Origin: Cristatella mucedo
Taxonomy: Eukaryota; Bryozoa; Phylactolaemata; Cristatellidae
Reading direction: 5' to 3'
Assembly (NCBI GenBank): GCA_009760855.2
Contig: WPIO01000004.1
Location: 1,512,501-1,576,500, forward strand
Length of the DNA: 64,000 bases
The notes under the pieces are model-generated. The model had not been told where the DNA came from, did no database searches, and worked only from the letters and a program-made list of their open reading frames with translations. This document shows positions 20,135-23,100 of this stretch, piece after piece. The position numbers and the translations under genes are program-made. Position 1 is the first letter of the stretch; each line of letters opens with the position of its first letter.

Positions 20135-23100
20135 GTACGTGTACGCTGCTTAACCATTTCGTTGGAAGTCTTACGTATTTTTCCTATAATAGTAGCGATA
20201 GTTGTTCCTATAATAGTAGCGATAGTATTATTTGTGGAATATTTCCTAAAGCTTTTTATTCTGTCAGACTAGTACTCAGGTCTTCGTATTGTTCCGTCGA
20301 CCATGTGCCGACAGCTCGTCGTAGCTGCTATGTTGCCCTGATCGCTGGAAAGAGCCCGACATAGCGGGCCTATGGCTGATTGGCTTTTTATTCTAAGCCT
20401 ACTTCGTGCTTTGTTTGTGATGATTTGTATCTTATGCGTGCTGCGTAAGGAACGCGTCCTTGTTCTAGCGTACCCGGTAATAGCTCATTGCTCGGGTACG
20501 GGATGTCGCTTTGTTAGATTACTAGTATCCGCATTTGACCGGTTGTAAGCATCACATTGCGATCAAATTTGTAACGTTTTGGCTGTTGTGCGTTGTAGAA
20601 AAGGTATTTCGAAGTCTGCTCTGCCCTATCGTCGTTCTGTACCGACAGTAAGTGTCCTCCAACTGGGCCTGTTAGACGCTGGGTCAAGCGCGAATCTCCT
20701 GATATTCCAGAATCTGTGTTAATCGTCATATCACAGTCCAGCTCCAGTCCTGCCGATGACCGTGGCAGTTCTGGCGTTTCATACTGTGTATAGCATTACG
20801 GTGCCACGCTATGTCCTTGCTTCTTGTGGGGCATGGATACAAGCGGTTACCGACAATCAGTCCAAGCATTTGCCGGCGCTTCTTGCATTGCCGAATTAAG
20901 TATGAAATGGTTAAACGTGATCGCCTTCGCAGCTCAATGTTTACTGGCTTCATAAACCATCACCCATCCTATCATGTGCATATTTTTCTAATGTAATTGT
21001 GCCTACACACTTGGTTCGCCGTATAAGATTTGTTGTGCTGAGGATGAGAAGTTTGTTGCTTTATTGTAGTGGCTGAAGCTAACGTCTGACGACGTTAAGG
21101 AGCAAATATTCAAGCTTGCTAAGAAAGGCCTCACTCCTTCACAGATTGGTGAGTCTCGTCGTCGTGGCTCAATCCACTGCATAGTATCTCAAACCTATTG
21201 ACATGCTTTTCCAGCATATGTACATTGCCTGGGAAGTTACTTGGTTGCTCGATAAATGTTATATATAAAAGCAAGTCTCGCGAATCACAGTCCAGCTCCA
21301 GTCCTGCCGATGACCGTGGCAGTTCTGGCGTTTCATACTGTGTATAGCATTACGGTGCCACGCTATGTCCTTGCTTCTTGTGGGGCATGGATACAAGCGG
21401 TTACCGACATCACTTGTACAATTTTCTGCTTGTCGTGCCTGTCTGCGTCGTGATCGGCCTAAGATGATCACACTCTAAGATGCCATTTTGATTTTAGGTG
21501 TTATCCTAAGGGACTCGCATGGAGTTGCGCAAGTGCGGTTCGTAACTGGAAACAAAATTTTGCGCATTCTCAAGTGTAAAGGTCTCGCACCTGAAATTCC
21601 CGAGGACCTGTACTTTCTCATTAAGAAGGCAGTGGCCATTCGTAAGCATCTTGAGAGGAGTCGTAAGGTCAGTGTGGCTATTGCTTCAGCTCATATTCAT
21701 ATTGTACTAAGCTTAGATTTCGTAGTTTGATTTGTAGGCCACTTATTATGTACAGAACCGGTTCTGTTTAACTGTTGGTTTTGTAAAGTGTGCCATCTTA
21801 CGGTACATATTTATATATCGCTGAAACCATACGCGGTTCATGCAGCAACTACTTGTTTCTTCACTGATCACTAGCTTTTGTATCAGCATTGCAGGAGCCG
21901 AATTCGTTGCATGAATTGTTAAAAGAGTTTGTGCTGAATCACTGTACGATGCTGTAATATGTGAACAATGCCCCTAAAGAGACGAAACTCTTTTAAGAGC
22001 AGCAAGCTAAGGTTAATGATGTGCCAGGGAATACGATTGGTTGGACTAGCATGCAAAAAAGTATACGTGACAAACCTTGGCCACTGGTTAGTTGTGCCCC
22101 TGGTTAGCAGTATCATGTACTTGTGTGCACACCTCTAAGCAAAGGGAACCAAAAAATGTCACTGGCAAAAGAGAAGCTTGCCGGATATTTCTTATAATAA
22201 TGCTAGCCACGGTGTGGTGTCAGAAGCCGGGTGTTACAGAATTTCTATGCCTACGAACTGTAAGTCCCATTACCAAAGCATTAAATTTAGTGCAGCAGCT
22301 ACGAGACAGCTGAAAGCCGATGTGTCGGTGTGAAAGCCCAATGAAGGAGCGCTGTGGTGAATGTGTTGGCTAATAAGAGTTCTGCATCTCGTGACCACAT
22401 GTGGATATTTGATCCGTAAGAGAGCCATTGGTGCAGTGTGCTGTAGCACCTGTACCTCAGACCGAGTGAGGTGCTTCTGTCACCTGTTCTGTGGACAATT
22501 CCAAGTTATGTTGGAACCTCCTGATTAAAAGAATTGCAGTTATGGAGACGAAGTGTCGAACGTGTAACTAGAACTCTCATGTGTGCATGTAAGCAGGTCC
22601 TGATTTTTTGCAAGGCCAGCATAAAGTATGGTTGCATGTGCTCATTTTATGACAGGTCTTTTTGGTGCGTGTTGGCACGTGTGACTGCACTCGCACTAGG
22701 CGATTAATCTCGATTATGGGGTCTGTCCTTTGATTCGTGAGCATCGTTTTAATGGGGATGTGCGATGAGTTATACCCTACCCTATGAAATCTACCTCCCT
22801 CACTGTACATTTGCTTGCTTTCTGGACAAGATATCTGACTATACGACCGTGAGCCATTATTGGTTTCTATTTTAAATCAATTCGCAGCCAATTCTTGCTG
22901 GCTTGTCATGTGCGCAGGCTTTAGCAGCCATTACCCAGCCCAGCTTGCATGCAGCTATCACAGTCCAGCTCCGACATAGCTGAAAACAATAGCTATGCCG
23001 GCGTTTCATACTGTGAAAAGTAATTAGGTGCCACGCTATGTTCCTTCCCATACGTTGGAATGTGAATACAAGCGGCTACCTACATGCGCTTGACACTTTG

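Follow-up and report, generated by a model that had tools for sequence, protein, structure and literature searches.

The 64 kb stretch of DNA analysed here (the window) contains the gene for the ribosomal protein RPS13, and three introns of this gene very probably hold paralogous genes, one per intron, for a single box H/ACA snoRNA, the first hairpin of which would guide a pseudouridylation in 28S rRNA. Box H/ACA snoRNAs bind the proteins Cbf5/dyskerin, Nop10, Nhp2 and Gar1. We propose that each snoRNA would be spliced out together with its RPS13 intron, that the intron would then be trimmed back to an RNA of two hairpins under the protection of the H/ACA core proteins, and that the trimmed RNA would serve as a pseudouridylation guide, with the pocket of hairpin 1 receiving the uridine of GGAACG-U-G-AGCUGG in 28S rRNA. 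The gene model, the copies, their fold and boxes, the conservation of their pockets and a base-pair match were all observed; we infer expression, processing and modification of the predicted uridine.

Host gene and snoRNA copies

The RPS13 (uS15) gene extends over positions 20112..23291 of the + strand and is complete within the window. It has five coding exons (20112-20134, 20599-20647, 21070-21148, 21498-21667 and 23157-23291, the last including the stop codon), all of them spliced at GT-AG, and encodes a protein of 151 aa. The gene was identified by its spliced translation, by the Pfam domains PF08069 (Ribosomal_S13_N) and PF00312 (Ribosomal_S15) and by 57 PDB sequence matches, the top ones being RPS13/uS15 chains matched over residues 1-151. 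The ATG is preceded, at a distance of 10 nt, by the pyrimidine tract CTCCCTCTTTC, as expected for a TOP/TCT start, a term used in PMC6954239, which also treats rps13. Intron 1 contains a 24-nt unit in two tandem copies that are 96% identical (20178-20225). By eye we also noticed a CTATGT...ACATAG hairpin at 20325-20370 and a TGATGAT word at 20418-20424 in this intron; the region of the hairpin and the word gave no Rfam match and no candidate in the H/ACA scan described below.

Introns 2 (20648-21069), 3 (21149-21497) and 4 (21668-23156) each hold one unit of 126-128 nt on the sense strand: copy 1 at 20730..20855, copy 2 at 21284..21409 and copy 3 at 22957..23084. The units of copies 1, 2 and 3 begin 82, 135 and 1289 nt, respectively, after the first base of the intron, and their ends lie 214, 88 and 72 nt before its last base. 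These coordinates and the gene model confirm an earlier sequence-only reading of this DNA, which had placed an H/ACA-type RNA in each of the three introns. It had also spoken of three copies of one snoRNA. Three copies are present and copy 2 is identical to copy 1, but copy 3 has clearly diverged, with 37 differences in 126 aligned columns.

Copies 1 and 2 are identical across the whole unit, including the loops of the hairpins, and their identity ends at the RNA's own ends. No similarity stands out among the flanks of the copies: in six comparisons between 16 and 186 of 200 shuffles scored as high, and the closest comparison, copy 1 against copy 2 in their upstream flanks, was equalled by 16 of 200 shuffles. 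An identity confined to the RNA points to recent copying or conversion. The two copies may have arisen, or have been homogenised, through a mechanism that stops exactly at the ends of the mature RNA, either retroposition into the RNA's own host or a gene conversion limited to the RNA. Combined with a second hairpin that would guide a lineage-specific target, this is a tentative scenario, which we regard as somewhat unlikely as a whole. The identical pair with its unrelated flanks offers a clean case of how snoRNA copies spread among the introns of one gene.

Fold, box motifs and covariation

In single-strand folding all three copies form two hairpins joined by a hinge, and no copy is equalled by any of its 200 dinucleotide shuffles (z = -3.6, -3.5 and -4.3 for copies 1, 2 and 3). 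Box H/ACA snoRNAs carry an H box of the form ANANNA in the hinge and an ACA three nucleotides before the 3' end. The H boxes of all three copies are located in the hinge and fit this motif, with ATAGCA at 20790..20795 in copy 1 and at 21344..21349 in copy 2 and AAAGTA at 23017..23022 in copy 3. The ACA boxes are found at 20853..20855, 21407..21409 and 23082..23084, respectively, all on the + strand; as predicted from the DNA, hairpin 2 is directly followed by the ACA in all three copies. Fold and scan bear out the H box, the ACA and the two stems that had been described for each copy.

The boxes were located with a home-made scan for a hairpin, ANANNA, a second hairpin and ACA, which was run on both strands of the 64 kb with cut-offs chosen after the copies had been seen. 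It returned eight candidates in the window, and the three copies hold ranks 1, 2 and 4 by energy. An H/ACA predictor or covariance models had been suggested as a check. With the covariance models of Rfam, no family matched anywhere in the window at the gathering threshold. At E values up to 10 the region 20000-23400 gave only mir-31, far below its cut-off and on the opposite strand. Among the other scan candidates, rank 3 (33513-33650) folds as a whole sequence without two separate hairpins, and rank 5 (14176-14307, + strand) is an H/ACA-like candidate that folds as two hairpins.

We then compared the stems of the copies pair by pair. Six of the 25 pairs in the structure changed on both sides and still pair, and 96% of the cells are paired; the structure was written from the folds of the same three sequences that were used for the test, and with two of the three identical within the unit the result is in effect one comparison. 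Four of the six compensated pairs lie in the upper stem of hairpin 1 and one in each stem of hairpin 2. When the pairing partners were slid, five of six controls gave no compensated pair and one gave a single pair, and only 1 of 500 shuffles reached six. The further pair types were reached by 65 of 500 shuffles and are hence not unusual. Pairing fails at 3-61 in copies 1 and 2 and at 19-43 in copy 3. The inner stem of hairpin 2 shifts register in copy 3, and its innermost part was excluded from the 25 pairs.

Guide pockets and the predicted target of hairpin 1

In copy 1 the alignment and the target scan place the pocket of hairpin 1 at CCAGCT (left side, 20738..20743, + strand) and CGTTTCAT (right side, 20775..20782, + strand). 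The pocket of hairpin 2 consists of GCCACGCTA (20803..20811) and CAAGCGG (20840..20846), both on the + strand, an assignment made from the fold and the alignment that depends on the fold. Between copies 1 and 3 none of the 30 pocket columns changed, compared to 37 of 96 columns elsewhere (Fisher p = 6e-6, with the pocket columns assigned after the alignment was seen). This holds for both hairpins, with 0 of 14 columns changed in hairpin 1 and 0 of 16 in hairpin 2.

The same columns bear on the question of how many of the copies are functional. Either copy 3 alone, or copies 1 and 2 alone, might work as a snoRNA, the remainder being recent or decaying duplicates. As copies 1 and 2 are identical, one of them may be a very recent copy that selection has yet to test. 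However, both carry the boxes and the pockets and lie in introns of RPS13, a gene that is expected to be highly expressed, and copy 3 has retained all 30 pocket columns; we consider such a division into working and idle copies unlikely. Three functional paralogs remain our preferred reading.

The complementarity of the hairpin 1 pocket to rRNA had been named as a further check, and the pocket does match a conserved uridine of 28S rRNA. In human rRNA, CCAGCT / CGTTTCAT pairs over 6+6 bp (one of them G-U) with the 28S sequence 5'-GGAACG-U-G-AGCUGG-3' in the standard geometry. The distance from the base of the upper stem to the H box is 15 nt (alignment columns 47-61), and as a rule the pocket lies about 14-16 nt before the H box or the ACA. 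The sequences scanned were human rRNA and snRNA, with 28S incomplete, as the rDNA that we came across in the assembly was not intact. Across these 4980 bases the best site for hairpin 1 scored 29.5 and the next best 17.0. A score of 29.5 was reached by 1 of 5000 within-pocket shuffles and by 4 of 5000 random pockets, where the shuffle test covers one pocket geometry and nine geometries had been scanned earlier. Hairpins, boxes, compensated stems, unchanged pockets and the 6+6 bp match to rRNA together support the reading of the RNA as a putative H/ACA guide.

We also compared the site with decayed 28S fragments from the same genome, which gave nine aligned rows. The target U is present in all seven rows that cover it (from six places), but the 14-nt site occurs letter for letter in none of the rows. 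Two 28S rows represent a single place where most of the 14-nt site is lost.

Hairpin 1 is accordingly described here as a predicted guide for the pseudouridylation of one uridine in the catalytic part of 28S rRNA. We take this uridine to be U2944 of yeast 25S rRNA, the site of snR37, and position 4491 of human 28S rRNA, the site of ACA10. For chicken 28S rRNA, the table in PMC2653536 gives snR37/ACA10 at 3976, snR10 at 3955 and U65 at 3912 and 3858. When we counted these spacings back from the predicted uridine, taken as 3976, all of them fell on a U in the 28S core; only 3 of the 196 uridines of this core pass the same test, the predicted one included. According to the tables, snR37 and ACA10 share one site both in chicken (PMC2653536) and in Neurospora (PMC2780460), and snR37 is described as acting in the peptidyl-transferase centre (PMC1766470). 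An RNA that goes unrecognised by Rfam is in this way given a clear, testable target within the peptidyl-transferase region.

Hairpin 2

For hairpin 2 the distance from the base of the upper stem to the ACA is 13 nt, just below the 14-16 nt given above. With 56 geometries of copy 1 against the human rRNA and snRNA, the best score was reached by 145 of 150 shuffles, and when copies 1 and 3 had earlier been scanned with 30 geometries each, nothing comparable with hairpin 1 emerged. Position 210 of 18S rRNA, which we take to be the second target of ACA10, was absent among the best sites. An 8-nt match of GCCACGCU to AGCGUGGC in 28S rRNA, found by eye, was rejected as it offers no uridine at the right place. 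For now we treat hairpin 2 as carrying a putative conserved orphan pocket.

A pocket that is as conserved as that of hairpin 1, yet has no match in rRNA or snRNA above shuffles, is what one would see if the main role of this H/ACA-like RNA were something other than rRNA modification, be it as an orphan or as a scaRNA acting on snRNA. Such a role is very improbable given that hairpin 1 fits a highly conserved 28S site over 12 bp in the required geometry, and a guide for 28S rRNA remains the reading that we follow below.

Comparison with known snoRNAs

The copies resemble snR37 of yeast as well as ACA10 and SNORA82 of vertebrates, which are likewise box H/ACA RNAs with the same predicted 28S uridine. 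The chicken table assigns this site to the 5' hairpin, as is the case for the copies here (PMC2653536). Unlike snR37 and ACA10, the RNA is hosted by RPS13. The likeness is one of predicted target. Rfam gives no snoRNA match, even when E values of up to 10 are allowed, and so does not demonstrate common descent with snR37/ACA10, although a distant homology may escape such a search.

Introns of human RPS13 host the C/D RNA U14 (SNORD14), as stated in PMC5831926. The host gene and the intronic position are the same, but U14 is a box C/D RNA and the copies described here are of the H/ACA type. The sequence-only reading had drawn this very contrast, and it stands: Rfam finds no U14 in the 64 kb window at gathering or in the RPS13 gene region at E up to 10. 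The introns of RPS13 can evidently host a class of snoRNA other than the human one. In the literature on RPS13 and snoRNAs we found no title that reports an H/ACA RNA in RPS13, a search of titles only in which the subscription literature is partly covered.

Several copies of one snoRNA in the introns of one host have been described in chicken as cis-duplication (PMC2653536), and in the mfl gene of Drosophila a repeated snoRNA occurs once per intron (PMC1821038). Both share with RPS13 the presence of several copies in one host, though the repeated snoRNA of mfl is of the C/D type. In Drosophila, snoRNAs are hosted by introns of 27 genes for ribosomal proteins (PMC2246290). In a human survey all expressed members reside in one host for 59.5% of the C/D families compared to 7.3% of the H/ACA families, a difference that its authors read as recombination for C/D and retrotransposition for H/ACA (PMC8178906). 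Paralogous snoRNAs across the introns of one host are well described in these sources (PMC2653536, PMC8178906).

With cis-duplication, the Drosophila ribosomal protein hosts and the human survey on record, the arrangement in RPS13 is known in kind. Intronic H/ACA clusters in Drosophila were reportedly also the subject of Huang 2004, judging by its title. What we describe appears to be an ordinary, well-supported H/ACA snoRNA encoded in introns, whose paralogs share one host; it is a new instance of a known arrangement. It is less ordinary that RPS13 is the host, that Rfam gives no match and that copies 1 and 2 are identical exactly as far as the ends of the RNA.

Genome-wide distribution and repeats

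A DNA search of the 572 Mb assembly placed the unit at no fewer than three places (genome copy counts are lower bounds throughout), all of them in RPS13; a fourth match, on contig C84, covers only sequence downstream of the unit. A search with the pattern of the hairpin 1 pocket and stem returned the same three places on the forward strand, none on the reverse strand and none in a backward control. We saw no clear target-site duplication when we looked for the longest exact word of at least 4 nt within 25 nt on each side: the words common to both flanks are TCCA for copy 1 and TGCAG for copy 3, with none for copy 2. By eye there is no A tail at the copies.

A dispersed transposable element had been named as the finding that would overturn the snoRNA reading, and the lack of a fourth copy in the genome searches speaks against it. 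The reading of the unit as a dispersed repeat, such as a SINE or MITE derived from a snoRNA, that lies in RPS13 introns by chance is largely refuted and in our view extremely improbable: the identical copies 1 and 2 with their unrelated flanks and precise ends look as they would for a mobile element, and rDNA fragments are scattered in the same genome, but the unit was met at three places in 572 Mb (a lower bound), all in one gene, one per intron and on the same strand, the pocket pattern occurs three times forward and never in reverse or in the control, and a clear target-site duplication is missing.

In intron 2, the segment 20862-20965, which follows shortly after copy 1, matches contig C84 (L003) once, at 78%. 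The matching place on C84 lies near a TAA repeat and the word GCGCTTTAC; the segment is perhaps an old mobile-element fragment and lies outside the snoRNA. Decayed 18S and 28S rDNA fragments are scattered over the contigs (e.g. L005, L006, L013, L014 and L015). Our rDNA baits hit 10 places for 18S and 29 for 28S, and no intact rDNA unit was met among the fragments examined (15 of the 29 28S places were fetched). In the contig collection a 28S pattern occurs in one contig, which carries the site close to its beginning and is recorded as a Bacteroidetes MAG; we left this contig aside. Within the window we noted by eye several open stretches resembling LINE-type reverse transcriptase, at 15819-16451 on the + strand and at 18487-19098, 32304-33444, 39611-40327 and 46530-47042 on the - strand.
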